From Akebia trifoliata (Eukaryota > Streptophyta > Magnoliopsida > Ranunculales > Lardizabalaceae), in assembly GCA_017979445.1 (NCBI GenBank), contig CM030717.1, forward strand, positions 14,990,086 to 15,054,085: DNA of 64,000 bases, written 5' to 3'. Both the position numbers and the translations under genes were made by a program. Shown here piece by piece: positions 3,591 through 61,207 of the stretch. Under the pieces are notes generated by a model. That model was not told the origin of the DNA. It saw only the letters and a list, made by a program, of their open reading frames with translations, and did not search any database. Each line of letters opens with the position of its first letter. Positions within the stretch are counted from its first letter, which is position 1.

Positions 3591-3593
3591 ATT

Positions 3594-9265: not shown

Positions 9266-9277
9266 TTAAAAAAATTT

Positions 9278-9286
9278 TATAAATAG
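9278..9286 (+). promoter_or_regulatory. TATA box of solo LTR
   Basis: TATAAATAG followed after 12 bases by the conserved accctattttcgta. Confidence 0.65.
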
Positions 9287-13144: not shown

Positions 13145-14900
13145 TGAAAGTGCCCTTAATCCGCGGGGTGCAAGGATCCGCTTTTGACCCTTGAGGTTTG
13201 GGAGTCGTCACCTAGTTATTATGGTCTAGGAATCAAACTGACTCTAAAATGGATAAAAAACTAATCTACTATAGAAAAAAACTGAATCCGGGGATCACAT
13301 TACGGGATTGGAAGGTGTTAGGCACCAACCCCGCTCGGCCAATGTCGGTCTCTACTTATCCCAAATATAACTACATCGCTAATGACAAAATCTAGATAAA
13401 AAAATAACAAAAACCTTACCTTCAATCTGCAAAGGTTCTATTCCCTCAAATCTGGTGAAAATGCTCCTTGTACCGTACTCCTTGTACCGTACTCCTTACT
13501 CCGTTCTATCTCCGGATCTGATTTCTAATCTCCGAGGTAAGGTATCTCCTTCTTGGATCTAGGTGCTTTGAATTTGTTGTGGATTTTGGGGTATTTTTGA
13601 AAGGCTTTTAGGTGTTTTTTAGGCTAAAATCAAAGTATGGGTGTTAGGTAAGGAGTTGGGACTTCAAAATTAGGGTTTTGGGGAGGTTGTGGAGGCTTCT
13701 TCACTTACTTTTTCTAGGGTTTTTTCTTTGATACGAAAATAGGGTGTGAGCACCTCTATTTATAGATGTTTTTAGGGGTTGATTTTGATAGAGTTAGTGT
13801 TTAATTAGAGTTATTTTAATTAGAGTTGTGTTTTAGTTAGAATTGTTTTAGGTAGAATTGTGTTTTAATTAGGATTGTTTTAGGTAGAATTATTTTTTAG
13901 TTAGAACTCTATTAGTTAGAGTTATTATTTAATTAGAACTCTATTATGATTTTGACTTTTGATCTTATTTGATTGACTTTTAATATTTTGACTTTAGTCT
14001 CACTTGATTGACTTTTAATATCTTGACTTCAGTCTTGCTTAATTGACTTTAATTTTAACTTCAGTCTTGCTTGATTGACTTTAATACCTTGACTTTAGTC
14101 TTGCTTGATTTACTTTTAATTTTTGGAGACCCCCCCTCTAAAATATCTTTAATTTTTTGGACCCCCAAGTGGAGGGGTCCTTAAAGAAATATCTCACGAA
14201 CCCTCAACAATTTTACTTGAAAGCCCGATTGATCGATTTTTTTAATTCAAAATTTTAAATTAATTTCATCAATGTTTCACTTTAATTATTTAATATTTTA
14301 TTTATTAATTTCGAAATTTTTAATTATGAAAATTGTGAAATTACCATTTTGCCCCTCGAGAGGACTTTTCACGTTTTAAATCGATTTTTAATGTTCTAGG
14401 ATGTTTTAGAATCGATTTTTCGTAAGGAATTCGATGGAAATATTGGTTTGTGTCATTTATGAAATTTTTTGTGTGAAATGTTCATAACCTTTATGAGGGG
14501 CATTTTCGTAATTTTGTCAAATTCTGTGAAAATTGGCGAAATGATTTATTTGATTTCAATTTGTTTTTTTATGTGTTCAAAAGGGTTTTCCTAATCGTAA
14601 CATAGGCTCTAGGGTTGTTTTGATATTAGGGGTATTTTGATAATTTGATCAATTTTTAGTGATTTTTATCGTAAAGCTTCTTTTTGGTCTGCAAGATGAT
14701 GATTTCTATATTTCTGGAGTCATATTTTCCTAGCGTAGCGTGATTTCTAAGGTTTTGTCAGTTCGAGATACCTCATCCGGATTTCTGAAACATATCTGGT
14801 AACAAAATAAAGCAATAGAAATAACATCCATCATTGGGAATCATTGCAATCGGGTTGACGAGTTGATTAATCAGGCGAGTGAAAAAATGAGGTGTCTACA
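13145..14900 (-). repeat. 5' LTR of B (family 1)
   Basis: TG...CA on the minus strand (plus strand tgaaagtgcc...gtgtctaca), 1756 bp, the longest family 1 copy. The TATA box is at 13756-13764 in reverse. The R-U5 hairpin at 13304-13332 stays paired in the sense RNA through a G.U. The PBS-like word is mutated (ggagtcgtca, 13201-13210). Confidence 0.9.
13756..13764 (-). promoter_or_regulatory. TATA box of B 5' LTR
   Basis: TATAAATAG on the minus strand, where expected in the LTR. Confidence 0.65.
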
Positions 14901-15720
14901 GTACCCTACTGTACAAGGAGGATAGACAATGTCTATTCTAAATGAGAGGTATTTAAGTGGACCCTTACTCAGCATCGTGCACCTCCTCTCAACTGGGAAT
15001 TAAACTGGCTACTTTTTGACTTTAGAGATTTAAGTTAGAGTCTTAAATTATCACATATAAGGTATATCAAACAAAGTTACCACGTATCGAGTTATATAGG
15101 TGCACTTGGGCAAGGGTGGCTAGATAAATTGCATTGCACGTACTAAACTAAAGTCTAGAAACCTCCCTATAGGTTACGACTCGAACTTATCGTGGGTGTT
15201 TCCGGATTGCTTGTTAGAAATGGACTTTACAAATGATGAAATCAGGAATGTACAGTTTTTTTCCTCAAGGAGTAATCTTTTTGTTTAAACCTGATTCGAC
15301 TTTACTATATTACTAGGTGCACCAACCCAATAAAGAGTCCATCTTAAAAACTTGGCAATGGTCATAATGACCCAGTCCATTTTGATCCAACAATCATGAT
15401 GGACCGAACCATATAAATCAAAATGAAATTCAAACTCTTTGCTAATTCGAGTTTCAACCCATTTTAAAAGAAGAAAAATGTTTTTCCGAAAAAGAATATT
15501 TTTCAGAAAAAATATTTTCCAAAAGAAAATGTTTTCTAAAAGAAAAGAAAATGAAGGAAAAATGATTTAGAAATGATTTACTCTTTCATGGAAAAATGAC
15601 TTACAAAAATATATTTTACATGGACCTTGGAAATGTACTAAAATACCCTTCTGTGTCGAACCAGGATGTTAGCCGTAGGCAATAACCCAATTGACCAATT
15701 GGTCAAACAACCATCATAGG
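14901..15720 (+). other. C leader with conserved hairpin
   Basis: Carries the hairpin GGATAGAC-AAT-GTCTATTC (14920-14938) and the following 'gaggtatttaag...gtgcacctcctc' block shared with D, E, F and G. 15112-15215 matches the start of the window. 15475-15610 is A-rich with short self-complementary runs (tttttcagaaaaa). No coding sequence recognised. Confidence 0.65.
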
Positions 15721-19528: not shown

Positions 19529-19530
19529 TC

Positions 19531-21047
19531 TGTAGACACCCCATTTTTGTACTCGCCTGATTAATCAACTCGTCAACCCGATTGCAACGGTTCCCAATGA
19601 TAGATGTTTATTCCAATGCTTTATTTTGTTACCAAATATATTTCAGAAATCCGGATGAGGTATCTCGAATTGACAAAATTGTAAAAACCACGCTACGTTA
19701 GGAAAATATGACCCCAGAAATATAGAAATCATCATCTTGCAGATAAAAAGAAACTTTACAATAAAAATCACTAAAAAAAAGATCAAATTACCAAAATACC
19801 CTTAAACCTCAAAACATCCCTAGAGCCTACGTTACGCATAGGAAAACTCTTTCAAACACATAAAACAACAAATTGAAATCAAATAAATCATTTTACCAAT
19901 TTTCGTAAAATTTGACAAAATTATAAAAATACCCCTCATAAAGTTCGCAACCATTTCACACAAAAATTTCATAAATGATAAAAACCAATATTCTCATTTA
20001 ATTACTTACAAAAAATTGATTCCAAAACATCTTAGAACATTAAAAAATGACTTAAAATGCAAAAAGTCCTCTCTGAGGGCAAAACAGTAATTTCACAATT
20101 TTAATAATTAAAAATTTTGAAATTAATAAATAAAACATTAAATAATGTAAAGTGAAATATTAATAAATTTAATTTAAATTTTAAACAGAAAAATCGATCA
20201 ATCAGGTTTTCAGGCAAAATTATTGATGGTTGCCAGGATATTTATTCAAGGACCCCTCCATCTAGGGGCCCAAAGAATTAAAGATATAATAAAAGGGGGT
20301 TCTCTAAAAATTAAAGTCAATCAAGTAAGACTAAAAGTCAACCAAGAAAGACTAAATTCAAAGTATTAATGTCAATCTCATAAGACTAAAGTCAAAACCC
20401 TAAAAAAAACCCTAATCAAACCCTAATTCTTCTAAAAAACTTTATAAATAGGAGCCTCCTCACCCTATTTTCGTATCAAAGAAAAAACCCTAGAAAAAGT
20501 AGGTCAAGAAGCATCCACAACCTTCTCAAAACCTTAATTTTGAAGCCCCAACTCCTTACCTAACACCCATACTTCGATTTTAGCCTGAAAAACACCTAGA
20601 AGCCCTTCAAAAACACCCTAAAATTAATAAAAAAATTTGAAGAATCCAGATCTAAGGAAGAGATACCTTACCTCAGAGATTTGAAATCAGATCCGGAGAC
20701 AGAACGAAGTAAGGAGTACGGTACAAGGAGCAATTTTATCAAATCTGAGGGAATAAAATCGTTGCGTTCGAAGGTAAAATCTTTTTTATTTTTTCTATCT
20801 AGGTTTTTTTTAGCAATGTAGTCTTATTTAGGATAAGTAGAGACCGGCATTGGTCGGGAGGGGTTGGTGCCTAACACCTTCTAACCCCGTAATGTGATCC
20901 CCGGATTCAGTTTTTCTTTAGTAGATTAGTTTCTTTATCCGTTTAGAGTCAGTATTCAGTTTTTAGACCGTAATAACTAGGTGGCGACTCCCAAACCTCA
21001 AAAGTTAAAAGTGGATCAACGCACCCCGCGGATCGATAGTGCTTTCA
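19531..21047 (+). repeat. 3' LTR of C (family 1)
   Basis: TGTAGACACCCC...GCTTTCA, 1517 bp. TATA box at 20443-20451, R-U5 hairpin at 20860-20888 (one G.U), PBS-like word at 20982-20991. The terminal stem is decayed (gtggatcaacgcaccccgcg). Confidence 0.9.
20443..20451 (+). promoter_or_regulatory. TATA box of C 3' LTR
   Basis: TATAAATAG with the conserved 'caccctattttcgta' downstream. Confidence 0.65.
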
Positions 21048-22305
21048 TCAGTCAGATACCCAAGGAAAAGGTGGTGCACAATGCCTTAGTAAGGGCATTC
21101 TTAAGTCACCTCATTTCTTTGAATAAACGAAGTCTATTCTCCTTATATCAATAGGAAAATATCATTCTTAGGCACCGACTTTGATCAAGAATTACAATTG
21201 GTGCTTAAATTGTTTTTCAAATTTAATTTATTAGAAAATGATTGGATTCATTTGGATTAATCGATCGACTGTTGATTTTGATGGATCATGGTTTTGGTTG
21301 AAATTAGAGGATGGGCCCAGTTTGGGTTGAATAGGAATCATGGACCTAGTTTAGGTTGGATTAGATCGTTAACCTGATTGGGATTAGATACAGGTCGTGG
21401 ACCCAGTTCAAAATAGATATGGGTCGTAGACCAAATTCAGATTGGATACTAGTCGTGGACCTAGTTTGGATTGAATATTTTTTAAATGAACTAATGGTTC
21501 AACAAAAGTACTTTTGGGATGATAAATAGGGAAGTGACATGTGTAAAGCTAGAGTGATAAGTGAAAGTAGAACTTCGTTCATTTGTAAATAACTCATAAA
21601 GAAAGGGTATATGTATATTTTTAAAATGGACTAATGAGAGAACTCTATGTATGTACTTGAAGATTCTCACCTTTTAAGGGTATGATTGGAAGTTCTCCCA
21701 ACTTTATGAATTATTACCAAAGACCAAAGTACTTTTTTGGTTTGACTACTCTTTTTGGGAAGGGTGTTCTTGGACTTTCGTAAGGGGGAGTTAACTCTCC
21801 AATTAGATTAAGCATTGGGTATTGAAGGCTTATGGAAGATCAACTTGTGTCACCTTTTGAAGTAGTGTGAGAGAATGGGCTCAGAATGGACTTGGTATTG
21901 GGCTTACGTGATGGACTTGGACTATGGACTTAGTTTATGGATAACGGATTTGGAGATGGACTTGATTTATGAATAATGGATTATGGACTTTGAGTATTAA
22001 GGCTAGGTTTGAGAGTGGGTTTAATAGGACTTAGCTTATGGATTTAGGCTATAGATAATGGGTTGGTTAATGGAGAGTGGATACGAAATTGGGTTGGTTC
22101 ATGATTAGGAAGGTGGGTTACGTATAGATTTAGATTGGATTAGGGACAACGTTGAACATGCAAAGTATATGACATAATGCATGTATGTGTGAAAATGATG
22201 CCAAGTGGCAATGTGGGCCCGTTGAGAGGCTCAAGTTCTTAATTGAAATCAATTTGAGAAAATTTAAATTTTCCTAATGGGTTCTTGCAACTTGGGGTGT
22301 CTACA
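21048..22305 (-). mobile_element. G: leader/LTR chimera (family 2), minus orientation
   Basis: 21048-21475 matches the leader of F (61415-61880), including the hairpin at 21121-21139 and a decayed GACCCA repeat. From about 21476 the sequence matches the family 2 LTR (solo copy near 42355-43101) up to its end gtgtctaca at 22305. The U5 part and PBS expected between them are missing. It serves as the left (3') end of F. Confidence 0.6.
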
Positions 22306-22464
22306 GCTGCCTCTCTTGGCAGGAGTTGCTTGCAAAGAAATATAAAGAATAGATTAGACCTTATTTGTGCGAACCCAAAATGATTCATCGTAAGATGATT
22401 AAAAAAATTGAATGAATTAAAGATTTTTTGTAGAATATGGCTACCCAAGCACAAGGACTGACAG
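22306..22464 (-). mobile_element. F: 3' UTR piece left of D
   Basis: Begins with F's PPT in reverse (gctgcctctcttggcagg) next to the LTR end at 22305 and reads into 'ggctacccaagcacaaggactgacag', where D is inserted. It continues at 50222. Homologous to 23479-23640 of D. Confidence 0.7.
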
Positions 22465-23478
22465 TGTAGCTACGTGATTTTCGTCATTACGACGGCCACA
22501 TCCACAAAAGATTTGGAGTCGCCACCATTCATATTGTAAGTGGGTGTGAATGGTCACCCGAGGTACATTTTCGTAAAATTATTATTTTTGGCTCGTAGTG
22601 ACTCACGATGGATAAGGATAAGTTAAACCTTGAGATTCGGGGTAAGCGGCTCGGTTGGAGAAAAGGGAAGGTGTTAGGCACCCCTTTCTCCCCGCCACGT
22701 GGGGGTAACCTCAAATAACTCGGTCATTTTAATTTTTAAAAGAAAGTGAAAAGTGTGTCACGTGGGTGCATTTGTTCCCTAAGTAGGGATTTAATTTTGA
22801 ATTGATCATAGGGTCATTTCATTGATGGAAATGACCCTTATGAACCTTTAGTCTTGGGGACCAATCATTACAAAGGTAAAATAAAATAGAAGAGGAGGAT
22901 ATTAGAAGAGGAAAGAGGAGAAGGTTAGAGAGAGAGAGGGGAAGGGGAAGCCTAGAACCCACCTTGAAGCTTCTTTCCTCTTCTTCTAGATCTTCTTAGG
23001 TCCTTAGTGAAGTATGTGAATGAAGTTATTTTTAGAAGGTGGTATGAGAGAGTATTAAAGTAGAAGAAGGGTGAGTAAATTTTTTAAGGAGACTTGGTAA
23101 CCATTTTTGGGAGGAGGGGAGGGGTATTTATAGGTGTTGAGAGAGTATTTGGGGGTATAATGGGGTGAGAGGTTGAAAAGATGGATAATGGCATAGGTTT
23201 TAAAGGTGGGGGTATGAAATTTGGAGTTAGGAGAGGGGTAATTATGTAATGAAGGTAAATGGATTGTGTTTTGATCCAAATGGTTTGGATCTTACCCAAA
23301 CCATTTGGGTGGAGTGTTTAAGAGGGTGAGTTGATGGGTGTTTAAGATGGTGGTTGATTGATTAAGTGGTGTTTGATTTAAGAGAATGGAGGGTGTAAGA
23401 TGGTGGTTGGGAGGGTGAGGGAGATGGTGACATGTGGGCCCTTTCGAGTGAGGGCCCGTTGAAATTGGGGTGTCTACA
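22465..23478 (-). repeat. 3' LTR of D, internally deleted
   Basis: 1014 bp, against 2234 bp for the 5' LTR. The two agree at both ends; 48972-50180 of the 5' copy has no counterpart here (junction near 23437, shared tgg). TATA at 23125-23133 reversed, R-U5 hairpin at 22657-22691, PBS-like word at 22515-22524 reversed. Confidence 0.88.
23125..23133 (-). promoter_or_regulatory. TATA box of D 3' LTR
   Basis: CTATAAATA on the minus strand, matching 48658-48666 in the 5' LTR. Confidence 0.6.
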
Positions 23479-23879
23479 GCTGCTCTTCTTTGCAGGAATT
23501 GCGTGCAAAGAACTGCAAAGAATATACTAAACCCCTATTTGCACGGGCCAGAGAACTTTGTAAAACACGACTTCGAATTTTCGGCTAAATTGATGACTTT
23601 TGTAGAAAATGGCTACTCAAGCACGGGGTCTGACAGTGTCTTGCCTTATTAATTACTTGATCTCGATGGCGCAGAGCTCGTGTGAGATTTCAGATTTGGT
23701 GAAAGTTTGATGAGTTTGGAAATTTGAATATTTTTTTGTCGTGTTTTAACAAATCGAAATTAAGTGCAACTCGAAAGGATTTTTGATTTTTTTTTGATTT
23801 TTTGTTATTTTTTTTGTTGTTTTTATTTTTATTTTTTTATTATTATTTTATTTTTCTTTGTTTCTACTCTATTTCTAGC

Positions 23880-24122
23880 ATAAGTTAACCCTCTCAATTC
23901 ATGCATTGTCCCTTGTAATGACGCCTTTGATCCTTTCAACTGTGCAAGTGATAAGGTTGTTAACAGTTGCCACCGGTCCAAGAGAGTTTTGCTGCTGGGC
24001 CACAAGTTAGTTTTCTCAATTCATGCATTGTCCCTTGTAGTAGTGTCTTTGATCCTTTCAATGGTGTAAGCAATATGGTTGTTAACAGCTGTCACAAATC
24101 CAAGAGAGAGTTTTGCTGTTGG
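23880..24122 (-). repeat. Tandem duplication of the HD-ZIP IV C-terminal tail
   Basis: Two copies about 122 bp apart. Both contain 'ccaagagag...ttttgctg' and end (minus strand) in VNN...ERIK...TRDNA-stop: 24021-24100 ([20 protein letters not shown]) and 23899-23974 (VATVNNLITCTVERIKGVIT). They differ at many sites, so the duplication is not recent. Confidence 0.8.
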
Positions 24123-24760
24123 AGTCGAATCCACAAAGATCTGAAGGCAGGAAGGTTACATAGTCTAAGTCGCCTCCATTTAGAACACATTTATTGCGAC
24201 AAGATCAACAGGTGCATAAGTTGCGAATGAGTCTATTGCATCGGTACTACTCTCTTGCAATATCAACATACTCTTTCGCCCTTCTTGATTCATTATCACA
24301 CCAATATCTCTAGCTTGCATGTCACTAGCCATAACACTTGCAAGGCGTTCGCACTGTCGATCTAAGGTAGCAACCCATCGCTTTGTTCCAAATCCAAGGT
24401 CAGAGTTAACCAGTGTTCTGTGCATACTATGAACTACTTTGTTATCCACTTTTACATGTTCGACCCATATAACCTTGGAGTGACCATTTGGCATTTCTTG
24501 GATTACACAGCCTAATGGCCTTCTTCGACATCTCAATATCGGGCTGGGACGTCAATGATCAAAGGAAACATCGACCATCACCCAAATCTCTTCGTCATGT
24601 TGTTTACAATACCTACAAAGAAGCTTTCTCAAGTCGGAACCAGAGGTGAAGGGACTTGAAATTCTACTGTCATCACTTGAAAGGCTCCATTGTAGTTTCT
24701 TGCTACGCTTAGTGAGTCGTGATGCTTCGGACGTCAAGGTGGTAATGATGGTACCCTTTT
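23885..24760 (-). pseudogene. Captured HD-ZIP class IV (START-domain) transcription factor fragment
   Basis: Minus strand, sense to D. In order: TSEASR (near 24735); [12 protein letters not shown] and [11 protein letters not shown] in another frame (24700-24630); RYCKQHDEEIWVMVDVSFD, a stop, [48 protein letters not shown] (to about 24330); NQEGRKSML fused directly to [23 protein letters not shown]; then after a frameshift [15 protein letters not shown], and [15 protein letters not shown]...VNN...ERIK with a stop at 24021. These are hallmark START and C-terminal segments of PDF2/ATML1/ANL2-type epidermal regulators, in correct order. The homeobox and leucine zipper are absent; internal segments are missing, and stops and frameshifts abolish coding. 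It is a captured host fragment, not a TE domain. Confidence 0.88.
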
Positions 24761-26177
24761 TTTTTATTTTTTTGTAATGTGAAGCTTTTGAAATAAAAGG
24801 AAAATAGGTTTTTTTTACTTACCTGGCCTCAGGTGTATCTAATGATTTGAAAACTTGAAGTTTTAATAAGTCCTAGATTTTTCATCATCAGCCAAACTAG
24901 TAGTTTTTTTTTTTTTGAAATATTATGAAATGTGTTTGTCAAATGAGTACGATAAATTCAGGATTTGTAAAACCTTTGGTTGTGACGATCTTGGTGTTTT
25001 TGCCAACCACAGAGGATATAAACGTCAATTGCTCTTTTGATTCCTTTAGAGTCATTCCCAGTGCCCTAGTATTGGAAGACTATTATCTGTTTGGGTCCTG
25101 GGATTTTGAAAAGATTTCGCTGTTCACGGTTTATACTCTTGCGCGCTAGGAGTTTTTTTTTTTTTACCCTTATTGCCCCTGGTGCCAGTTACGGTTTTCA
25201 CCAGACCCGATTTCCACATTTTTGCTCATCGACGTCCTTTTTGGGATTTTCATCGTGCCGGTGGTTTTGATCTTGCTATAGTCGGATTCTTTTACTCATA
25301 GAGCCCTTTCAGGTTTTCACTATGCCCTTTCAGACTATGCTTGTATTTTTGGATTTTTTTTTTATTTTAACAATTCAGTTCGGAGTCTCTGTATCTCTAT
25401 GGCTTGGTGACTCAAGTTGAGCTGTGAGATCGGCGACTCTACTCTTGTAGTGACACTCTTTCTTGAGTAATCGATCTAGATTCCCCTCTCGAGTTTGTTG
25501 ACAACTATTCGTGGTTCGGCAACTCAAGTTGAGCTGCAAGATCGGCTACTCTACACTTCGAGTACTCTTTTTTTTCGAATATCTGACCTGGATTCCCCTC
25601 TCGAGTCCTCCAACGACTAATAAGACTTTGGAGGTCTGGACCAAGTTGCAAGATCATTGGTGCTGCCACTGTCATTATGTTGCCTTAGAGCATTTCCTGA
25701 TCAAAAAGGACTTTAAGTAGGACGAAACGTTGGCTTAGGCTTATGGTAGTGGAATGTTACAAAAAGGTTAAAGTCTGGGTCTTAGTTTATCTAAAGTGGA
25801 ATAAACATGGGGTTCGTCTATTTTTGTTTCAGAAAAGTGATCTATGTCTCCTCCCAGTGTCTCTCGAACTTGTTTAGGCTGGAGATTTGGGTCGAGCTCA
25901 GATCAATTGTCCGAATTTTTGACTTTTTTGATTGTTTTGTATTTTTAGCCGTTCACAGTTTATCCTCATGCGGGTCAGGAGTATTTTGACACTTTTGCTT
26001 TGATTTTTTCTTTTCTTTTTTGTCACCTTTTTTTTTCTTTTTTGTATCGTTTTGTAATTGTTGACTTACCCCAGTCTTAGGTTAAGAAATGAACGTGATG
26101 GCTCAAAAGGGTTGACTAAGGTTTGATTTGTTGGTTTAGAATAGCAAAGATGGCCTTTCGTCATCTCAGGGTCAGTT

Positions 26178-27459
26178 TTTAGGCATAGTTTTTTTTGACA
26201 GTATCAGCATTGATCGGTTGCGGGAAGACTTGTCCGTCCATCTCCATAAGGATCAAAGCTCCTCCTGTCATCACCTTCTTCACAATGAATGGTCCTTCAT
26301 AATTCGGTCGAAATTTTCCTCTAGCGTCTTCTTGGATCGACAGAATCCTCTTCAACACAAGGTCTCCTGGAGAGAAATCCCTAGGCTTGACTTTCTTATT
26401 GTAGGCACGGGCTATTCGTCGTTAGTAGATCTGTCCGTGGCAGATGGCTACAAGTCATTTCTCTTCAATTAGATTCAGTTGATCAAATCTAGCATGAATC
26501 CATTCAGTTTCATCTAACTCTGCTTCTTTTAAGATCCGGAGGGAGGGAATCTCAACCTCTACGGGTAGGACTGCTTCCATTCCGTAGACTAGTGAATACG
26601 GAGTTGCCCCTGTCGAAGTTCTGAATGAGGTTCGATAGGCATGGAGTGCAAAAGGCAACATGTCGTGCCAATCTTTGTACGTAACTGCCATCTTCTCGAT
26701 AATTTTCTTGATATTCTTGTTGACTGCCTCGACTGCTCCGTTCATCTTAGGTCTGTAAGGCACAAAGTTGTGATGAGTAATCTGGAAATCTTCGCACATC
26801 TTGATCATATCTCTATTCTTGAAGTTCTTGGCAATATCCGTTACTAGCCCGCTGGGAAGCCCATATCTGCAGACAATGTTGTTCTTGACAAACTTCAGGA
26901 CATTACTTTTAGTGACGTTGGCGTATGAAGCAGCTTCTACCCACTTGGTGAAGTAGTCGATGGCTACCAAGATGAAATGATGCCCATTTACAACTTTAGG
27001 TGAGATTGGCCCGATGACGTCCATTCCCCAGAGTGAAAAAGGCCAAGGCGTAGTCATGTTATGTAGCTCTGAAGGTGGAGCATTGATCTTGTTGGCATAG
27101 ATCTGGCACAGATGGCATTTGCGAATATGCTGATAGCAGTCACTTTCCATTGTCGACAAATAGTACCCCATCTGCATGATCTTCTTTGCTAGCATATGGC
27201 CATTCATGTGAGGTCCACAGACTCCCCCATGTACAGTCTCGATTAATCGTTTTGCTTCTGTTTCTGCCACACATCGAAGTAAGACCTCGTGGTGTGACTT
27301 CTTGTATAGAATGCCATTGCTGATGAAGAATTGTCCTGCCAGTTTCTGAATGGTTCTGCGATCATTTGATGTTGTATCTGAGGGAAGGGTTCGATCTTCA
27401 AGATATGCCCTGATGTCTGAGTACCAAGACTTTTCTTCGGATTCTTCAACTTCGACGGG
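26178..27459 (-). pseudogene. pol: D integrase
   Basis: Best preserved Tat integrase here. Zinc finger: VHGGVCGPHMNGH...HIRKCHLCQIYAN (HHCC intact). Catalytic core: LWGMDVIGPISPKV (Asp), LVTDIAKNF (Asp, in the place usually D-N-G-S), NGAVEAVNKN (Glu), so D, D and E are all present. After a stop at 26455 the same frame continues through VKPRDFSPGDLVLKR, DARGKFRPNYEGPF and a final VKKNYA-stop at 26178, the C-terminal domain; I see no chromodomain. In-frame stops at the LIEEK junction and at QIY-stop-RRIAR break it. Confidence 0.88.
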
Positions 27460-27915
27460 TAGACAATAGGCCAGCTCGTCCTGAATTTCAATCTCAATTG
27501 GGTCGATGACCAGATCTTCTGAAATACTAATCATGGAGGCAAGTGTAGCTAGTGCATCGACGAACTGGTTCTTAGCTCTTGGCATGTATGTGAATGAGAT
27601 TCTATCAAAGTGTGAGCTTAGTTCCTCTAGATACTCGTGGTAAGGGATCAGTCTCTGTTCCTGAGTCTTCCATTCTCCAGTCGTCTGATAAACGAGTAAG
27701 CTTGAATCTCCGAAAACATCGATCTCATCTACCTCGAGATCTAATGCTGCTTTCAGCCCTGTTATACATGCTTCGTATTTAGCTTCGTTGTTAGAGCATT
27801 GGAATTTCAATCTGATTGCGATCGGTATATGGGACCCATCTGACTTGATCAAAATTGCCCCTATTCCGTTTTCTTTCTAATTTGTTGCTCCATCGAAGTA
27901 CATTTTCCAGTCTGG
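27460..27915 (-). pseudogene. pol: D archaeal-type RNase H (second RNase H)
   Basis: WKMYFDGATN, then (after one in-frame stop near 27876) GIGAILIKSDGSHIPIAI, NNEAKYEACITGLKAAL, VFGDSSLLVYQ and KNQFVDALATLASM. The four acidic positions (FDG, EAKYEA, GDS, VDAL) are kept. A second RNase H of this kind downstream of the first is the diagnostic feature of the Tat clade. Confidence 0.88.
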
Positions 27916-28480
27916 TTCTTCGTCATTATCATCATTCTCAATCTCGGTAAGTAGTATGGATTCATCCAGGAAGTTCGTCTTCAATGGCTCGTAGTCAGGT
28001 AATGGGTGCTCGGCGAGGTGATCAGCGATGGCTTGCCCTTTGATAGCTTTTTGGGTGACATAGGTGATGTCGAATTCTGATAACAATAACTGCCATTTCG
28101 CTGTACGGACTGTTAGTGCTGGTTTTTCGAATAGGTATTTCAGGGGGTCCATCCTGGTGAAAAGCATAGTCGAGTAGCTGAGCAAATAATGACGCAGTCA
28201 TTGAGATGCCTAAACTAATGCACAGCATGTCTTTTCAAGTGTTGAGTATTTTACTTCGTAATCAATGAATTTCTTGTTGAGATAGTAGATGGCCTGTTCC
28301 TTCCGTCCTGATTCATCATGTTCCCTAGCACACACCCCATAGATGTTTCTTGCACTGAGATGTACATCAGCAGAGGTCGCCCTAGAGTAGGAGGGACTAA
28401 AACTGGTGGATTGAGCAAATATTGCTTGATTTTGTCGAATGCTTCCTGACAGTCTTTGTTCCACTTCTTCGGCGTATCTT
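27916..28480 (-). pseudogene. pol: D connection and first RNase H
   Basis: Pieces in two frames: PVLVPPTLGRPLLMYISVQE and SMGCVLGNMMNQDGRN in one; KEQAIYYLNKKFIDYEVKYS and TLEKTCCALV in the next; then WQLLLSEFDITYVTQKAIKG and AIADHLAEHPLPDYEP. This is the gypsy RNase H with a frameshift near 28250-28300. The acidic linker ('ENDDNDEEPDW') leads into the archaeal-type domain. Confidence 0.8.
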
Positions 28481-29095
28481 TCCTCATAGCTTGAATACTG
28501 GTTCACAGATAGGTGTGAGTTGAGCGATAAACCGACTGATATACTGTATTCTCCCCAGAAAGCCCCGAACATCATTTTCTGTAACGGGTGCTTTCATCTC
28601 GAGGATATACTTAGTTTTCGCAGGATCTATCTCGATACCTCTTCTACTGACGATGAACCCCAATAGCTTGCCTGATGTCGCCCCGAATACACATTTTTCC
28701 GGATTTAGCCTTAAGCTGTACTTTCTGAGTCTGTCGAATAACTTCTTCAGATTTACCAGATGATCTTCTTCTATGCCAGATTTAGCGATTATATCGTCTA
28801 CGTAGACCTCCATTTCCTTGTGGATCATATCGTGGAATAAGGCGGTCATTGCCCATTGATAAGTTGCCCCTGCGTTTTTTAGCCCGAATGGCATGACTTT
28901 GTAGTGGAAAGTATCCCATGGTGTGATGAACGCTGTCTTTTCTTGGTCTTTTTCTGTCAATTGTTATCTGGTTATAGCCTGAGAAGCCATCCTTGAACGA
29001 GAACATGCCATGCCCTGCTGTACTGTCGACCAGAGTGTCAATGTGCGGAAGTGGAAAATCATCCTTAGGACTGGCTTTGTTTAAGTCTCGATAAT
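28481..29095 (-). pseudogene. pol: D reverse transcriptase, main part
   Basis: From 29095: YRDLNKASPKDDFPLPHIDT, LVDSTAGHGMFSFKDGFSGYNQ, a frameshift, then KTAFITPWDTFHYKVMPFGL, KNAGATYQWAMT, MEVYVDDIIAKS (catalytic YVDD intact) and KLLGFIVSRRGIEIDPAKTK. The N-terminal third lies at 38312-38590, split off by element E, which interrupts the fingers motif just before YRDLN. Confidence 0.88.
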
Positions 29096-30290
29096 TGATG
29101 AGTGTCTCCAAACACTCAATTATACGCACATTTTCCGGATATTTATCTTGATTTTTGTACCTATTTCTCTATATTAAGATAATAATCATGATAAGCCTCA
29201 AACCACCACGTTGCATGTTAATTAGGCTTAATTATATATAAATAAATTCATTTACTAGATAAATCTAATTACGTGTGTTTCTTGTGCAGAAAATCAACAA
29301 TTTGGAATCAAAATCTCAAGGCAAAAGCATTTGGCCCACTTTAGAATGCCCTAATCCTTAACTCATATTCTCCTCTTTTGTCTTTTTGTGCAAAGAAAAG
29401 TGGAGGCTACTTTTAGACTCTTCTATACACATTTTTTTCTATAAATAGAGCCTTCATTTCTAGAGAAAACGTCCCATCTTGGTTCTCTTATCCAAGACTC
29501 CTTTAATCTAAGGCTCTTTGCCTATTCTCTTATTTTTTGTATTTTCATTTTCTAGTTATTTCCTTTTGACTAATTAGTCTTGTAAGAAGTAGAAGAAGAA
29601 GAAGTTGTAATTTTCTCCATGAAATGAAGAAAAGTTCTTTCATCTCTTATCTTCCCTCTCTTGCAATGACATTAGGCTAAGTTCCCCTCCATTGGAGAGT
29701 GGAAAAGCCTAGAGCAAGTTCTTGTGTTATTTTTAATTTCATGCCTTTCTTTTATTTAAAATGCTTATAAATTCTCTTTAAGTTTCTTGCACCTTTTATT
29801 CTTAATATAGATACTTTATGCTTAGATTAGATCAAGATAAAGTATGCTTAAACTAGATAATTGGTAGTAGGAAGTTTTCAAAGAATTCTACTTTGTTTAT
29901 GTTCTCTTATTTCATTTCATTTGCAAAACTTTCCGATCTAAGGAGCTAACACCAAGCCCTTACGATTGAGTTATAAAAAGGCTTGAAACTAAGAATTGCT
30001 CATCAACATGTTCTAGGTAGATCCACCTCTAATAGTGTTTTACTTTCATAAGTTTACTTTCTTTTAATTTCACTTACTTTAATTTCTTTTCTAGTAATTT
30101 TACATTTTCTTATAAGTTCAAAAATACAAAGAAAAACAGTTTTAATTCCTTTTAGTAAATTTAAATTTTATCTTCTTAGCTTAACTCTATTCCTCATTTT
30201 TCTTGGGTTCGATCCCCTACTTGCCCTACAAGTAAGGTAAATGTAAGATTATTATTAACTCCGGTGAGAAGAACAACGATAGTCTCATCA
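29096..30290 (+). repeat. 5' LTR of E
   Basis: TGATGAGTGTCTCC...TCTCATCA, 1195 bp. Near the start is a perfect stem TGAGTGT/ACACTCA with loop CTCCAA (29099-29118). TATA box at 29440-29448. The first 360 bp recur at 37944. Confidence 0.9.
29440..29448 (+). promoter_or_regulatory. TATA box of E LTR
   Basis: TATAAATAG in the LTR. The 3' LTR is truncated before this point. Confidence 0.65.
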
Positions 30291-30296
30291 GAATTT

Positions 30297-30314
30297 TGGT
30301 GTCGCTGCCGGGGA
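30297..30314 (+). other. Primer binding site of E, tRNA-Asp type
   Basis: TGGTGTCGCTGCCGGGGA, six bases after the LTR. Close to the Athila PBS complementary to tRNA-Asp, with a few C/T differences. Confidence 0.75.
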
Positions 30315-31063
30315 AAGGTAAAGGTAGTAGTGGTAAGTTTTGATTTAAAATTTATTTTTTTCATTTTTATTTTATTTTATTTTTTTCTTTTGGTTTCTTT
30401 CTATAGACTAAGGAAGGACGACGGGTGGACAATACCGTCATGGCTCCTTAGGTTCGCACATCAAAATTGGAGTTGGTGGCCTAAGTCGACTCAAACCGTC
30501 TTCACCCCGTCTAGCACGGGAGGTAATCCCGAAACACCCACGCCTCTCTTTGCTAGTGGGTTACTCCTTGCCTTTGTATGTTATTTTTCCAATTTGCACA
30601 CACTTGGAATAGTTAATTAGGTAGTAAAGAGCACCCCTCTCCTAGGGATGGAATGATAAGATAAGGATTGGAAGTCATTACCAATTCCTTGCTCTAATTA
30701 GGATAATCAATTCACTAGTCATCCAATCAAATTAATTAAAATCAATTAGACTTGACTATAGGGCCCACGAGCTCAATAGGAGAAATTCCGCTTCAAGTTG
30801 TGCCAATTGTGCTTCTTGGTCATTTTTGTATCTAGTAAGATCTTGCCCTTCGAGGGGATAGACTCAGTCTATTCAAGAAAGGAAGGTATTTAAGCGTGCT
30901 CTTGCTTATGCATTATGCACCTCCTCCGATCTGGAGATCCGAATGATTCAAACTTGACTTCATAGAACCGAGTTGGAAGGCTAGTTGTGCTATTTCTACC
31001 TAGTTAGGAGCTGTCTAGTTTTAGGCAACCTATCTAGGTCCAGTCTTTTCTTTTCGTGATTGT
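30315..31063 (+). other. E leader
   Basis: Contains a possible small intron (30333-30406: GTAAGT...TTTCTATAG, T-rich). Its conserved block at 30787-30985 resembles the leaders of D, F, G and C, with the hairpin GGATAGAC-TCA-GTCTATTC at 30856-30874. No protein recognised; the open frame 30264-30620 spans LTR, PBS and leader and is not credible. Confidence 0.6.
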
Positions 31064-32515
31064 TTGATCGACTGTGTGAGTTGTATGCTTGGTAGACGTT
31101 CACAAAATAACGTGTTAGAACCATTTGATCCTGAGATCGAACGTACCATCAGTAGGATACGTAAGACACCATCAGTAGTTATGATGGGTGATCGAGAGCG
31201 AACTCTCAATGAGCTCTTCGCTCCAGCTTCCGCATCTCCTCCCACATGCATTGTCTTACGGTTGAACAATGCATCTCAGTTTGAAATTAGGGCTGCCACC
31301 ATCAATATGCTCCCTAAGTTCCACGGTTTAGAGCGTGAACAACCTTACACCCATCTTAATCGATTCTTGACTATATGTCAAACTTTTAGAAATCAGAATC
31401 TAGATGAGGAGAGTATCAAGCTTATTCTGTTCCCGTTATCCTTGGAAGACCATGCAGCTGCGTGGTTGAACTCCCTAACACCCAATTCCATATCTACCTG
31501 GGATGTTCTATCAAAAAAATTTATGGCCAAATTCTACCCCGTGGCCAAAACTGAGAAAATGAAGGACTCTATTAGAAATTTTAGAGCCCGTCCTGATGAT
31601 GAATTTTCCCAAACTTGGGAAAGATTCAATGATTTATTGGTCAAGTGCCCACACCATGGCATTGACAAAGCACAGTTGGTGCAAAGTTTTTATAGAGGAT
31701 TAACAATGAATCAACGTACCTTAGTCGAGTCAATGCATAAGGGTCAGTTCATGAACCAGACTCCCAACCAACCGTACGATTTTCTCGTAGAGTTAGCTGA
31801 GAGTGCTCAAAACTGGAGTACTAACCAAGAAGAATTTGATAGAGATGATCCGGTTAGGAAGACAGGCATGTATGAGATGAAGGCAGACCCTGATCTCAAA
31901 AATGTCATGTGTAGTCTAGTGAGTGGGATGAATAATCTCACGAAGAAGTTAGATGCCTTTACCATCTCAGCATCCAAACCTCACCTAGACCCTCGTACAA
32001 TTTCGCAAGTGACTGTCTAACCGAGTTCTTTGTGTGTCATATGCGACGGCAATGACCATTTGGTTGAGTGTTGTCCCACCTTGCCTCAAATCAAAGCTGA
32101 ACATGCAAATGCGATTAATGACTATAGTACTTTTAAGAAGCCAACTCCAAACTCTTTTAGCCAAACGTATCACCCAGATAATAGGTTTCATCCTAATTTC
32201 TCATACAGACAGAACGAACCTATTCAATCTAATGGTCTGTCAGGTTACAATAGGAGTTTTCCTAGGCAATCTGGTTCTTCCACAAACCAAGCCATTGTTC
32301 CTCAAGTCCCTTATCAACCCCAATAATCTACCGATTGCAGAGCCATCATACCAGATCCCATGACCAATTACCAGCAGCTTGCCCAACAACAGTCATCTTT
32401 AGAATCTATGATTACCGAGTTGATGAGGTAGCAACAACAGTTCATCCAAACTCAACAGCAAACCCATCAAAATCAAACTCAGATTAACCAGGTCACTGCG
32501 CAATCCATAGCTAAG
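31064..32515 (+). pseudogene. gag: E gag
   Basis: Capsid and nucleocapsid. Core domain LPKFHGLEREQPYTHLNRFL, ESIKLILFPLSLEDHAAAWL, STWDVLSKKFMAKFYPVAK, DEFSQTWERFNDLLVKCPHH, then LVQSFYRGL, the usual Athila gag order. After an in-frame stop (32018-32020) the zinc knuckle CVICDGNDHLVECC (C-x2-C-x4-H-x4-C) follows, then a Q-rich segment with stops at 32324-32326 and 32429-32431. ATGs at 31064 and 31085 are both possible starts. Confidence 0.88.
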
Positions 32516-33500
32516 ATGGAAGTTCAGTTGGGGCAGTTAGCTCTTTCCTTGAGTGGAAGAGAGAAAGGTCAATTTCCTAGTCAGACTATCCCTAACCCTA
32601 GAGGTCAACCTTTGATTCCAAACAGATCAAAAGGTCAATACGAAGTAGGAAGCCATTCTGGAGCTTCACAAGACTCAATCCAGGCTATCCACACCTTGCG
32701 TTCGGGAAAGAAGGTGGACAACAAGGTCCAACCTATTGACACGGGAGAAAAGGTCTTAGAAAAGGACAAAGTTCAAAAAGAAGCCATAGAGTCTCCAACA
32801 GAGAAGAAGAAAGATTTGGAAAATCCTCCTATCATTTTGCCAATTCCAAAAGCTCCATTTCCCCATCGCCTTAGAGATTCTAAAAAAGGTAAGCAGTTTG
32901 AGGGTGTCTTAGAAGTCTTCCAAAATGTGCATATCAATATCCCATTCCTAGATGCCATTAAGCAGATACCTTCTTATGCGAAATTCTTAAAGGATTTGAC
33001 CACAACTAAAAGGAAAACACCATTTCCTCGAGAAGCTATTATGGCAGCCCAAGCTTCGTCACTCATCCAACAAACGATTGCACCAAAATTTAAGGATCCT
33101 GGATGTCCGACAATTTCTATTCATATTGGAAATCAAATGGTCGAAAAATGTCTCTTAGACTTAGGGGCTAGTGTGAACCTTTTACCATATTCGGTTTATA
33201 AACAATTAGGTTTGGGGGTTTTGAAACCCACAGATGTCACGTTGAGTCTAGCCGATAGGTCCATAAAAATTCCAAAGGGTATAGTTGAGGATGTGATAGT
33301 TAAAGTCAAAGATTTCTATTTTCCTGTTGACTTTGTTGTCTTAGATACAGAGCCAGTCATCAATTCGAACAGTCATATTCCTATCATCTTAGGACGTCCA
33401 TTCTTAGCCACGTCTGACGCAGTCATTCGTTGTAGAAACGAAATTATGACTTTAGCATTTGGGGATATGAAAGTGAAACTGAACGTCTTCCACAATTTCC
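32516..33500 (+). pseudogene. pol: E aspartic protease region
   Basis: Same frame as gag. A basic, proline-rich linker leads to the protease at about 33100-33420: TISIHIGNQMVEKCLLDLGA, SVNLLPYSVYKQLGL, with the active site D-L-G-A typical of Athila proteases, and PIILGRPFLATSDAVI as the flap and C-terminal part. Cuts Gag-Pol. Open throughout this stretch. Confidence 0.85.
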
Positions 33501-34900
33501 AAGGAATTGATGTAGATGATGGTATGGAGGAAGTGAACATGATAGATACGCTAGTCAATCAAACGTATCAAGAATTAGGGTACTCTGATCCCCTAACGAA
33601 ATGTTTGGCTCACTTTGGCCTTGACTTGGACGTAGAAGAGTCTATAAGCGAAGTCAATGCTTTGCTTGAATCCGTTCCACTCTTAGATTCTGTGCGGTGG
33701 CACGCAAAAGCTGAAAGTCTTCCTGTACGCACATCCAATCTTGTTCCTTCTCATGTCGAGCCTCCAAAATTGGAACTCAAGTCTCTTCCAAAGACCTTGA
33801 GATATGCATTTCTTGGCAAGAATCAAACCTTGCCTGTGATCATTTCTTCTCACCTCAATGAAGTCCAAGAGGGAAAGTTGTTAGGAGTATTAAGGGAACA
33901 TCAAGAAGCTATTGGTTGGAGCATAGCTGATATCAAGGGAATTAGTCCATCTGTGGTGATGCACCACATTCGTTTAGAGGATTTTGCTAAACCTTCCTTA
34001 GAACCTCAGAGACGACTAAATCCTGTCATGAAAGACGTGGTTCGGATGGAAGTGATGACATTGCTAGATGCGGGTATTATCTATCCTATCTCTGACAGTC
34101 GTTAGGTGAGTCCTATACAAGTAGTTCCTAAGAAATCTGGTATCACTGTGGTAGTGAACCAAGACGACGAATTAATCCCCACTCGAGTCCAAAATGGATG
34201 GAGAGTGTGTATCGATTATAGGAAACTTAACTCGATGACTCCTAAGGATCATTTTCCCTTACCTTTCATTGATCAAATGTTAGAGCGTCTAGCAGGACAT
34301 TCTTATTATTGCTTCTTAGATGGTTATTCCGGGTACAACCAGATACCTGTTGCTCCAATCGATCAAGAGAAAACAACGTTCACCTGTCCCTTTGGAACTT
34401 TCGCGTATCGTCGCATGCCTTTTGGATTATGCAATGCACCCGCTACTTTTCAACGGTGCATGATGAGTATATTTTCCGACATGCTAGAAAGATATCTCGA
34501 AGTGTTCATAGACGAATTTTCAATTTTTGGACCAAGTTTTGAGGAATGTCTCCATCACTTGACTTTGGTCCTTCAACGTTGCAAAGAGGTCAATCTAGTC
34601 CTCAATTGGGAAAAATGCCATTTCATGGTAACATCGGGGATTGTGCTAGGGCACATTGTTTCTGCTAAAGGGATTGAGGTAGATAAGGTAAAGGTAGGTC
34701 TAATTGAAAAATTACCACCTCCTAGAACGGTCAAAGAAATTAGGTCATTCCTAGGCCATGTGGGTTTTTATCGTAAATTCATTAAAGATTTCGAAAAAAT
34801 CTCGAAGCCTTTATGTGAGCTATTGGGAAAGGATGTTCCTTTCGACTTTTCAGAGTCATGTCTCTCTGCGTTCAACAAGCTCAAGTCCGAGTTAACCTCG
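33501..34900 (+). pseudogene. pol: E reverse transcriptase
   Basis: Linker, a stop at 34103-34105 just before [12 protein letters not shown], then [60 protein letters not shown] and [10 protein letters not shown]. The catalytic box, usually F-x-D-D, reads F-I-D-E here, so the second aspartate is replaced. Thumb: [20 protein letters not shown]. The frame is unbroken from 34106 to 35245. Confidence 0.9.
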
Positions 34901-35290
34901 ACACCCATTATTCAACCTCCAAACTGTAGCATTCCATTCGAAGTTATGTGCGACGCTTCAGATTATGCAATAGGCGCTGTTTTGGGTCAGCGAATTGAAA
35001 AACAACCTCATGTTATCCAATATGCTAGTAAAACCCTTAACGATGCTCAGCTTAACTACTCTACAACGGAGAAGGAAATGCTAGCAGTGGTCTATGCCGT
35101 TGAAAAATTCCGCCCCTACCTTATAGGATCTAAAGTTGTGATCTACACAGACCACACAGCATTGAAGTACCTTCTATCAAAGAAAGATGCTAAAGCAAGA
35201 TTAATCCATTGGATTCTACTTCTACAAGAGTTTGATCTCGAGATTTGAGACAAAAAAGGGGCAGAAAATGTCGTAGCTGATCACTTGTCT
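34901..35290 (+). pseudogene. pol: E RNase H
   Basis: [72 protein letters not shown], then a stop (35246-35248) and [12 protein letters not shown]. The catalytic residues of the gypsy RNase H (D in CDAS, E in TEKE, D in TDH, D in ADH) are in place. No second archaeal-type RNase H follows, in contrast to B and D. Confidence 0.88.
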
Positions 35291-36673
35291 AGGATAGTTA
35301 ATAAGCCATCCGAGGAATCCTTACCCATCTCTGAATCCTTTCTCGATGAGCAACTTATGCAAATCTCTCAAGCCAATGCTCCATGGTATGCGGACATTGT
35401 CAACTACCTAGTTGCAGGTCAATTCCCAGTCAAAATGACTAGTCAAGAGAAACTTCATCTTTTGTCAAAAACAAAATGGTATTTCTGGGATGAACCATAC
35501 TTATTTAAGTATTGTCCCGATCAAATCATTAGACGTTGTATTTCAACCTATGAGCAAGTCAGTATCCTAGAGTTTTGCCATAATCATGCCTGCGGAGTGC
35601 ACTTCAGTGGTAAGAAGACCGCCATGAAAATCTTAAAATGCGGTTTTTTCTGGCCTAGTATTTTTCGTGATGCCCACGAGTTTAGCAAATCTTGTGATAG
35701 ATGTCAGAGATTAGGAAAAATCTCTAAGAGAAATGAAATGCCTCAAAATCCTATCTTGATCATCGAAATTTTTGACATGTGGGGTATAGACTTCATGGGA
35801 CCCTTTCCTATCTCCCAGGGTTACCAATACATCCTACTTGCCGTTGACTATGTGTCAAAATGGGTCGAAGCTGTGGCATGTAGAACTAACGATCACAAAG
35901 TTGTGATAAAATTCATCAAGGAGACGATTTTTTCAAGATTTGGTACTCCACGAGCTATCATAAGTGATGGTGGCTCGCATTTTTGCAACAAGATATTTAC
36001 TGCCTTGATGAAGAAATACCTCATAACGCATAAGGTTGCCACACCTTACCACCTACAAACAAGTGGACAAGTAGAGATTTCTAACAAGGAAATAAAGACT
36101 ATCTTAGAAAAAATAGTCAATCCTTCAAGGAAAGATTGGTCTTTGAGATTGAGTGATTCACTCTGGGCCTATAGGACTGCATTCAAGACACCCATAGGGA
36201 TGTCTCCCTACCGGTTAATTTTTGGCAAGGCCTGCCATCTCCCTGTAGAACTAGAACATCGTGCATATTAGGCGATCAAACGCCTCAACTTTGATTTTGA
36301 TAAAGCCGGTGAGAAGCGAAAGTTACAACTAGACGAGTTAGAAGAGATTAGAAATGACTCGTATGATTGTGCCAAAAGGTACAAAGAGCGTACCAAATTC
36401 TTTCACGATAGGCACATTCTTAGGAGGAATTTCATTCCTAATCAAAAAGTTTTGTTGTATGATAATAGACTCCACCTTTTTCCTGAAAAACTTAAGTCTC
36501 GATGGACTGGCCCATATATTATCCAAACAGTTTACCCCCATGGTGCTGTTGAAGTCCTTAATCCTAAGGACGGATCCACTTTCAAAGTGAATGGCCAACG
36601 TCTCAAACCGTTTCTCGAGTATGTTTTGCAAGAGGAAGTTCTTTTTCTCGATGATCCCGTCTATCAAAATTAA
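35291..36673 (+). pseudogene. pol: E integrase
   Basis: HHCC finger ([13 protein letters not shown]...[10 protein letters not shown]), core with [11 protein letters not shown] (Asp), [13 protein letters not shown] (Asp) and [11 protein letters not shown] (Glu), [20 protein letters not shown], then a stop at 36269-36271 after HRAY and the C-terminal domain NFIPNQKVLLYDNRL, KLKSRWTGPYII, TFKVNGQRLKPFLE with the natural stop at 36671. DDE triad complete. Confidence 0.9.
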
Positions 36674-37943
36674 CTATGTTTTCGTCTAGCTAAAGACGTT
36701 AAACTTAGCGCTTCTGGGAGGCAATCCATGCACTTCAAGGGACATTGTGTTAAATATCAACAGGACTATAAGGTCTTTCTCAGGTGCTATCTAACCCACT
36801 TCATTTCATTTTGTCAATTTCAATTTTACCTTTGCATGTATATGTTGAAATATTGAGGACAATATAATGTTTAAGTTTGGGGGTGTATGGGTTGGATTTC
36901 CACTTATTATTTTCTTCTTTTATACAAAAAAAATTGAAAAATATTTGGTTGGCAACTTTGTTGTATTTTTCTCAAAGTCTTAGCTTGTATCTTTTAAGCA
37001 CTTAGTGAAAATATTTAATCAGTTTTTCATTGGAAGCTATGATCTGGAGTCCCCATTTATGTTTCTCTTAGGCAAAAATTAGAGCAAAGTTATCTTTTGG
37101 TTTATAGTCACTTCTAATAAGGTTACCAAGAGTCTAGATTGTATTAAAAGAGCTTGTTACCTTCTTTCTACCTAGAGTTTAAGGAAAAACTAGGTTTGAT
37201 GAACTTTGACTTCCTTGTTCAATTGGTTGGTTGAGTAGAAGAAAAACAGGACTGGATTGTATACACCTTGTACAGCAACCATTGAATTAGACTGGGTACC
37301 TTGAAAAGGGCTGCCTACTTTTCTTAGAAAAATAGTGAAAAAGTAATATATTAAAAAAAAAAAAAAGTCAAAGATCCAAAAGTTTATGTAAAGTTTTAGT
37401 ATGGTGAAAGCCATCAAGTGTAAAAATGTGAGTATACTGGAATATCACAGATAAAGCCCCTTAGAGGTATTAAAGTGAATATCCACACTTCTCACTACCC
37501 CAGACAGGATGCTAAGTTTAGAATTAAACCCTAAGTTACTCCAGTTATTCTTGAGTAGTTAGAAGGTTGAAACTCATTTTGAAAAATTGAATCTCTTAAA
37601 TTTCTGAGTTAGAATCACTATCGCTTAAAGGTCAATTTAAGTCTAAGTTTTGTCGTAGAGAAATAAAGGTTGGGACTCTATACCAAGCAGTACTTCTAAT
37701 TGATTGACAAAAAAAAAAAAGACTTGTGCTTTTCAATATAAGTTTTTATTTTGACTATTTTTACTTCAAAGTTGTTTTCAAATTTTGTGGGTATATTTTC
37801 TGTAAACCCTCACGAGTCAAACTCGTTCACTAGGGGTAATCTTGCGGTTCAAGGGCTTGCTGCATTCGCTAAATGCAGTCGAGGTGCCTGCGAAAGTGGC
37901 TGTTTTATTTTCTAGGGACTAGAAAAAGGTAAGTTTGGGGGTG
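36674..37943 (+). other. E 3' region with two polypurine-like tracts
   Basis: 36690-36735 has 'gacgttaaac...gcgcttctgggaggcaa', a block I know as conserved downstream of pol in Athila-type elements. The 15-mer taagtttgggggtgt occurs at 36872-36886 and again at 37930-37944 next to the LTR; only the latter is the functional PPT by position. 37808-37925 has two stems, CGAGT-CAA-ACTCG and CTGCATT-CGCTA-AATGCAG. I see no env-like ORF. Confidence 0.65.
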
Positions 37944-42051: not shown

Positions 42052-42060
42052 TATTTATAG
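42052..42060 (-). promoter_or_regulatory. TATA box of family 2 solo LTR
   Basis: CTATAAATA on the minus strand in the expected mid-LTR place. Confidence 0.6.
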
Positions 42061-61202: not shown

Positions 61203-61207
61203 GTTTG

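Follow-up and report, generated by a model that had tools for sequence, protein, structure and literature searches.

A Tat-type retrotransposon with an HD-ZIP IV segment in its 3′ UTR

Within a 64,000-nucleotide stretch of Akebia trifoliata DNA (contig CM030717.1, positions 14,990,086 to 15,054,085; hereafter the window), pieces of an HD-ZIP IV transcription factor lie inside a long terminal repeat (LTR) retrotransposon, which raises the question of how host coding sequence came to be there, from which gene it was taken and what became of it. The element, termed D, has its sense strand on the minus strand of the window, to which all features of D given below belong. Its 3′ LTR (22465–23478; TG..CA ends) pairs with 47988–48971 in the 5′ LTR, which LTR pairing and a reading of the ends place at 47988–50221. 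The pair shows 94.8% identity over 984 bp (40 substitutions among 972 aligned sites; K2P=0.043), and the flanking 5-bp sequences, GACAG and GACAA, are alike at four of five bases. The match between the LTRs ends after 48971, the 5′ LTR being ~1.2 kb longer than the 3′ LTR, and the LTR end of D is followed in sense by GCTGGCGGCTCCACTG.

The gag and putative aspartic protease regions of D occupy 39955–45062, with gag at 44274–44627, where the Pfam Retrotrans_gag match (E=0.00056, 20.5 bits) falls below its cut-off of 24.1, and with the putative protease at 39955–40509, which was recognized by eye and has no Pfam match. The pol region (26179–28960; Pfam RVT_1, RVT_3 and rve) comprises reverse transcriptase, RNase H, a second, Tat-type RNase H and integrase, with one open reading frame (ORF) for reverse transcriptase at 28484–28960 and another for RNase H/integrase at 26455–27852; the C-terminal reading of integrase ends at 26179. 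RVT_3 was matched at the start of the integrase ORF (E=2.3 × 10−17) and RT_RNaseH at 27877–28197 (E=5.5 × 10−5; 23.7 bits, below the cut-off of 24.8). D is a Tat-type Ty3/Gypsy element by two features: the second (archaeal-type) RNase H between RNase H and integrase, and the long region between pol and the 3′ LTR, which measures ~2.7 kb (26178 to 23479) and is thus slightly shorter than the 2.9–6.6 kb described for recent Retand elements. A Retand-type antisense ORF of at least 600 bp is absent from this region of D, which is decayed; the plus strand there contains no ORF of at least 150 amino acids, the longest, read from stop to stop, being 110 amino acids (26140–26472).

The 3′ UTR of D consists of a distal part (24790–26178), which is continuous with the insert in sister copies, and a proximal part with the polypurine tract (23479–23880), where the sense sequence AAAGAAGAGCAGC stands immediately 5′ of TGTAGACACCCC. 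Between the integrase end and the polypurine tract, which lies beside 23479, the stretch 23885–24760 is where HD-ZIP IV motifs follow one another in order on the minus strand, split among three frames. A 123-amino-acid open frame within them (24183–24551) holds the end of a START domain and part of PDF2_C with Pfam scores of 1.1 × 10−15 and 1 × 10−7, respectively; both exceed the curated cut-offs, so the HD-ZIP IV match is not due to chance. Motifs, Pfam and alignment to host genes together identify the insert as a captured segment of the PDF2/HDG2 class in shrunken form, lying in sense to gag-pol. The original prediction, made from the sequence alone, had read START-domain and C-terminal pieces of the PDF2 family in their correct order, on the sense strand of D, after integrase and before the polypurine tract, and it holds on each of these points. 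An Rfam scan of the window gave no match.

The passenger in the window is damaged and rearranged. When the D copy was compared, allowing for frameshifts, with a ruler protein of 486 residues that was written from knowledge of the family and was used for finding places in the genome, four shifts were needed and two stops were met. The START and PDF2-like C-terminal domains are partial in D; one sister copy (L030) scores 9.6 × 10−39 for START and 2.2 × 10−54 for PDF2_C. At 23879–24122 a unit of ~122 bp, made of the host coding end, the stop codon and the first bases of the 3′ UTR, is duplicated in tandem (23879–23998 versus 24001–24122; 80.3%). At 24263–24270 lies a deletion junction, TATGTTGA, at which ~113 residues of the parent are gone: these 8 bases border the largest inner deletion of D on both sides in the host gene described below as A, and one copy of them remains in D.

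Longer forms of the passenger are common in the genome

A whole-genome search with 23885–24760 scored 40 of 701 candidates and yielded at least 49 matches. Eight D-type places were read (L001–L008, the window copy being L001), and all eight have D UTR on both sides of the insert, including the first 500 bp of the distal 3′ UTR beside it. A second search, with the part that is missing from D, revealed at least 150 matching places (150 of 346 candidates scored). From these, 54 non-D loci were read (L009–L062; 20 of 3.3 kb, 14 of 9.2 kb and 20 of 2.7–2.8 kb); L031, L035, L038, L039, L040 and L046, each the same place as another locus, were dropped before counting, as was L019, which lies on a small contig and has the same numbers as L018. 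The read set therefore represents 47 distinct copies among the 150 scored places and, with the eight D-type copies, 55 in all; the near-identical pairs L047/L049 and L050/L051 were retained in the counts.

The proximal 3′ UTR of D adjoins 46 of the 47 non-D copies and the distal 3′ UTR 41, so that 40 copies have both, the other seven have one and none has neither. All of the 14 long (9.2 kb) loci contain LTR sequence, in one case only a 44-bp LTR end, and 11 contain integrase. The longest sister copies cover ruler residues 1–479, with START and C-terminal parts colinear, without introns and at the same place as in D. The D-type copies, in all eight cases, are without the stretch before about residue 105 and without residues 260–373, and seven also lack ~29 residues near 416–445, judged by length. 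The D copy is thus a shrunken derivative of a longer passenger, in agreement with the earlier proposal that an ancestor of D had captured the sequence and then lost inner parts of it. The further expectations that the same insert would recur in other copies and be continuous with the 3′ UTR of D were likewise borne out, and the abundance of longer forms goes beyond what had been foreseen.

The 356-amino-acid frame of L030 matched 353 proteins in the protein database. The nearest entry among the 120 matches listed (80%) is a 505-amino-acid protein of Acorus calamus (P0001) with START and PDF2_C and with no homeodomain among its listed domains, which may be either a cut gene model or another capture. 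No retroelement-named protein appears among these 120 of 353 matches, whose names are those of plant proteins, some rows being unnamed.

Individual copies have further rearrangements. In L029 and L047 (C1:19928258 and C367:45860) the captured coding end is repeated as tandem units of ~60 bp, possibly the start of a satellite built from host exon sequence. In L041 (C7:10325700-10334900) captured exon 1 is split by ~3.6 kb of foreign sequence ending in GGGGTGTCTAC, which resembles an LTR border.

The insert derives from spliced host mRNA

The host genes nearest to the insert are gene A (C1, L063) and gene B (C13, L064), both of which bear introns and neither of which has D UTRs beside it. They are old paralogues, with dS=0.625 between them. 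The insert begins at A 549–550, between the zipper and START, in all eight copies that reach this point (12 compared), indicating that the homeodomain was never captured or was lost before the family spread. A query with the homeodomain and zipper gave 50 matches (68 of 68 candidates scored), the close ones being about a dozen single HD-ZIP IV loci, most of them split by introns; a multicopy set comparable to that of the START part was not found among these candidates.

One copy, L021, aligns with successive exons of gene A; its sequence runs on unbroken where that of the gene is interrupted, at eight junctions. Seven of these are removals of introns with GT..AG borders, six in the coding part and one in the 3′ UTR (A 3386–4080), and the eighth is a deletion in L021 itself (A 3149/3245). 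The introns of A are precisely absent, which genomic DNA as the source does not explain, and the source was therefore a spliced mRNA; the original prediction had asked whether introns of the parent would be missing, and they are. The B-like stretches of the main copies (L022, L027 and L029) also span exons 3–7 without introns.

Most copies read are mosaics of two paralogues

Genes A and B differ at 203 coding positions, by which several kinds of copies were distinguished. L021 and L014 are A-like throughout and represent pure A copies. The others switch, at places determined by eye: L043 is A-like in exons 1–4, B-like in exons 5–7 and A-like at the end; the main group is A-like at the very start and in exon 2, mixed in exon 1, B-like in exons 3–6 and much of exon 7, and A-like at the end; the D-type copies are A-like at the end of exon 2, B-like through exon 3 to the middle of exon 4, and A-like from there on. 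In codons 244–367 (exons 5 and 6) the ratio of A to B sites is 40:3 in L021 and 40:4 in L014, against 5:37 in L043, 6:39 in L022 and 4:42 in L027. Such opposite states in the same exons (40:3 versus 4:42) exclude a capture that preceded the split of A and B, which would give a uniform mixture.

The mosaic structure was evaluated by shuffling A/B labels within each of the 55 copies (1,000 shuffles, with a P limit of 0.001). Switches were fewer than in the shuffles at P≤0.001 in 33 copies and at P≤0.05 in 51; significant mosaicism was absent in the remaining four, L005, L014, L017 and L021. The mosaic of L043 gave a Fisher P value of 5.5 × 10−17, and the mosaic evidence is weaker for the D-type copies (shuffle P from 0.002 to 0.07). 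Taken together, most copies read are A/B mosaics with A-like ends and a B-like inside, the B part being intronless as well, and two host paralogues are the source rather than one, an outcome that the original prediction did not contain. Since the intronless B stretches lie inside an A segment, B was exchanged in from spliced B RNA. At the first diagnostic sites, every one of the 36 readable copies is A-like. Where B has changed since the exchange, lone A-like sites within a B segment are to be expected.

Synonymous distances differ among the kinds of copies. L021 lies at dS=0.16 from A, and the B part lies at 0.10–0.12 from B in four main copies, at 0.18–0.24 in L041, L048, L055 and L060, and at 0.26–0.33 in the D-type copies L001, L003, L007 and L008. 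These differing distances to B would be consistent with repeated exchange or with differences in age.

Proposed capture by template switching and alternative origins

The reading that we prefer, with a probability of roughly 75%, is that a Tat element took a piece of spliced A mRNA into its 3′ UTR, later exchanged inner parts with B and spread the passenger in a dead state. The donor would be gene A on C1, a PDF2/HDG2-class HD-ZIP IV gene, an internal piece of whose mRNA, from just before START through the stop codon to ~0.2 kb of the host 3′ UTR, would have entered the element 3′ UTR in sense. LTR elements package RNA in particles, where reverse transcriptase can switch to co-packaged cellular mRNA (PMC5408686); a template switch of this kind between co-packaged element RNA and host mRNA would be the most likely route. 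Once present in element RNA, ~1.7 kb of A sequence may have offered homology for switching to spliced B (C13) mRNA and back (copy-choice), and this inner exchange in element lineages would yield A-B-A mosaics. The ORF was presumably broken in source copies, from which the family would have multiplied with a dead passenger. In the D subfamily, further jumps, at least one of them at a short direct repeat, would have removed about half of the insert, and its end would have been duplicated in tandem.

The identity, orientation and position of the insert, its intron loss, the mosaicism, the shared lesions and one deletion at a direct repeat are established by the sequences; we infer that reverse transcription was the stage at which the exchanges occurred and that B mRNA, rather than another B-carrying retroelement, was the immediate source of B. 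The same pattern would result from an exchange at the DNA level with a B retrocopy that had been processed beforehand. D itself was inserted in the 3′ UTR of a related Tat element, E, which it splits into pieces at 22300–22464 and 50222–51854. The E pieces align to the 3′ UTR of D on both sides of the insert (72–78% in BLAST pieces), and the HD-ZIP IV segment is missing from the 3′ UTR of E. No closer relative of D without the insert, which would define the switch points between element and host and any micro-similarity there, was found.

A broader interpretation, which we put forward tentatively and a little short of favouring it, is that the element repeatedly sampled a gene family: A homology would have drawn copy-choice with B mRNA more than once, with differing switch points in L043, the D-type copies and the main group. 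The 3′ UTR might then be a fossil record of the host mRNAs present in particles, possibly those of epidermal or meristem L1 cells. PDF2-class genes are expressed in epidermal or meristem L1 cells.

Among the alternative origins, two separate captures, of A mRNA by one element and of B mRNA by another, might have been recombined within the shared gene when the two were co-packaged. Exchange between elements is likely anyway, and L048, judged by eye, has an exon 4 switch in common with the D-type copies and another in common with L043. Yet none of the 47 non-D copies is B-only in codons 0–118, and the common start of the insert at A 549–550 is as expected if B entered only by exchange within A; we therefore regard two captures as rather unlikely.

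Distinctly less probable is a LINE-type processed pseudogene of gene A that dropped into the element 3′ UTR and was then carried along. The insert is indeed spliced, 5′-truncated, in sense and ends in 3′ UTR, and A-rich sequence follows it in D and L014, where it could be taken for a poly(A) tail. The longest copy, L021, continues past these points as host 3′ UTR and then reaches a T run, not poly(A), so the A-rich runs look secondary, and the B segments would be left unexplained.

The passenger spread mostly dead

Lesions are shared widely among the copies. A +1 frameshift near ruler codon 176 is common to 35 of the 47 non-D copies and a stop at codon 22 to 22 of them, while a shift near codon 108 is found in 18 and a stop at codon 46 in 13. 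Each of the 37 copies in which 430 or more codons can be read carries between two and nine lesions, and the sole lesion-free row, L009, spans 265 codons. These shared stops and frameshifts indicate that the passenger spread mostly dead; that most copies read descend from already broken versions is a second respect in which the results extend the original prediction.

Pairwise dN/dS, calculated for the 44 copies that were long enough, falls from 0.94 in close pairs to 0.27 at dS of 0.4–0.6 (0.33 in the last bin, which holds two pairs), and dN/dS on the element branch relative to A and B is 0.35–0.78 in the 16 copies tested, below the 0.94 of close pairs. When indels beside homopolymers were set aside, 4 of 11 pairs had significantly fewer indels per substitution in coding than in flanking sequence. 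Such values would be expected if selection maintains, or for long maintained, a functional START and C-terminal protein that helps the element, for example by acting on epidermal or lipid signalling. The fall of dN/dS, however, largely reflects the difference between paralogues A and B in mosaic copies, the remaining seven pairs show no significant indel difference when indels next to homopolymers are excluded, and the long copies are all broken, with many of their lesions in common. Purifying selection on the carried ORF is thus unproven, and a selected protein appears very unlikely to us. Finally, it is scarcely credible that the copies are not element cargo but normal HD-ZIP IV genes of the host or duplicated genomic segments, and this is refuted for the copies read, which are intronless and adjoin element UTRs, even though the genome has its dozen or so real HD-ZIP IV loci and 2 of the 150 places (C10:28848174 and C12:33203666), each no more than 3 kb from such a locus, are probably those host genes themselves.

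Relation to known captures and potential for small RNAs

LTR elements are known to capture host mRNA, and the well-described plant cases encountered are, in our judgement, few. The maize LTR retroelement Bs1 carries pieces of three cellular genes (PMC5408686). The Akebia family resembles Bs1 and other LTR-mediated retrocopies in its pieces of spliced host mRNA and in particle template switching as the route (PMC13317346, PMC5408686). Unlike in Bs1, the Akebia passenger lies in the 3′ UTR of a large Tat element, is present in many copies and stems from one class of transcription factor gene, and the second host contribution came by homologous exchange with a paralogue. Phalaenopsis elements with an AlkB (2-ODD) domain are likewise large, belong to the Tat clade and have an acquired host-type domain fixed in the lineage; that domain is active in vitro (PMC9289625), whereas the Akebia ORF is broken in every long copy read. 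The same study, a screen of 121 angiosperm genomes, describes 15 extra domains; neither START nor HD-ZIP is among those named in its section on them, and its main text never uses the words START, homeobox or leucine zipper. Retand, as described, shares with D a long region between pol and the 3′ LTR that holds tandem repeats, but its extra ORFs are mostly antisense and mainly of the TRP28 type, whereas the extra sequence of D is in sense and derived from the host. Among the matches listed in the open-licence literature, we found no description of an LTR retrotransposon that contains HD-ZIP IV or START sequence, nor of a plant element in which spliced sequence of a paralogue had overwritten the captured gene. 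A cucumber paper concerns a different situation, in which an HD-ZIP IV gene is itself the target of an element's insertion.

Captured sequence may also act on its parents. The copy in the window matches spliced A exactly over 54 nt and B over 27 nt; all 55 copies share at least 21 nt of exact sequence with A or B, and the longest exact match among them is 154 nt, to B. Small-RNA effects of the insert copies on the two parents are therefore possible, as far as sequence potential goes. The insert being in sense, its sense transcripts alone would not silence the parents, and antisense or double-stranded RNA would be needed. The idea, raised in the original prediction, is itself not new: in maize, host-gene pieces in Helitrons, Pack-MULEs and Sirevirus LTR elements can feed siRNAs against both element and donor, and siRNA data exist for such captured pieces (PMC13317346), whereas the Akebia insert offers sequence potential. 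Similarly, the Pxyfem retrocopies of a moth are partial cDNAs of a regulatory gene tied to LTR retrotransposon pieces, and their silencing of the parent by small RNAs has been shown (PMC9674220), in contrast to the potential effect in Akebia.

This one family contains, next to each other, copies of pure A type, A/B mosaics of several kinds and shrunken derivatives, and the order of capture, exchange, ORF loss and deletion can be read from the genome. It becomes testable how frequently particles take up host mRNA, which cells transcribe the element and whether its many sense copies, with exact matches of up to 154 nt, affect the two HD-ZIP IV genes through small RNAs.

Other repeats in the window

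A second LTR element (29096–38317) is nested in the pol of D, with LTRs at 29096–29432 and 37944–38317 that are 89% alike and with plus-strand ORFs at 31064–36271. Short tandem arrays with a spacing near 57 bp occur at 45164–45691, 46015–46520 and 61701–62260, in the gag-side leader of D and in that of a neighbour, and near 46000–46500 the minus strand reads repeats such as STTQIQSNWVHDPDP. Another tandem array, at 55187–56348, has a period near 68 bp and long open stretches on the minus strand. Furthermore, one long repeat is present five times (8222–9884, 13145–14902, 19530–21047, 53240–54786 and 59667–61203), its copies being ~75–93% alike and probably representing LTRs of another family.
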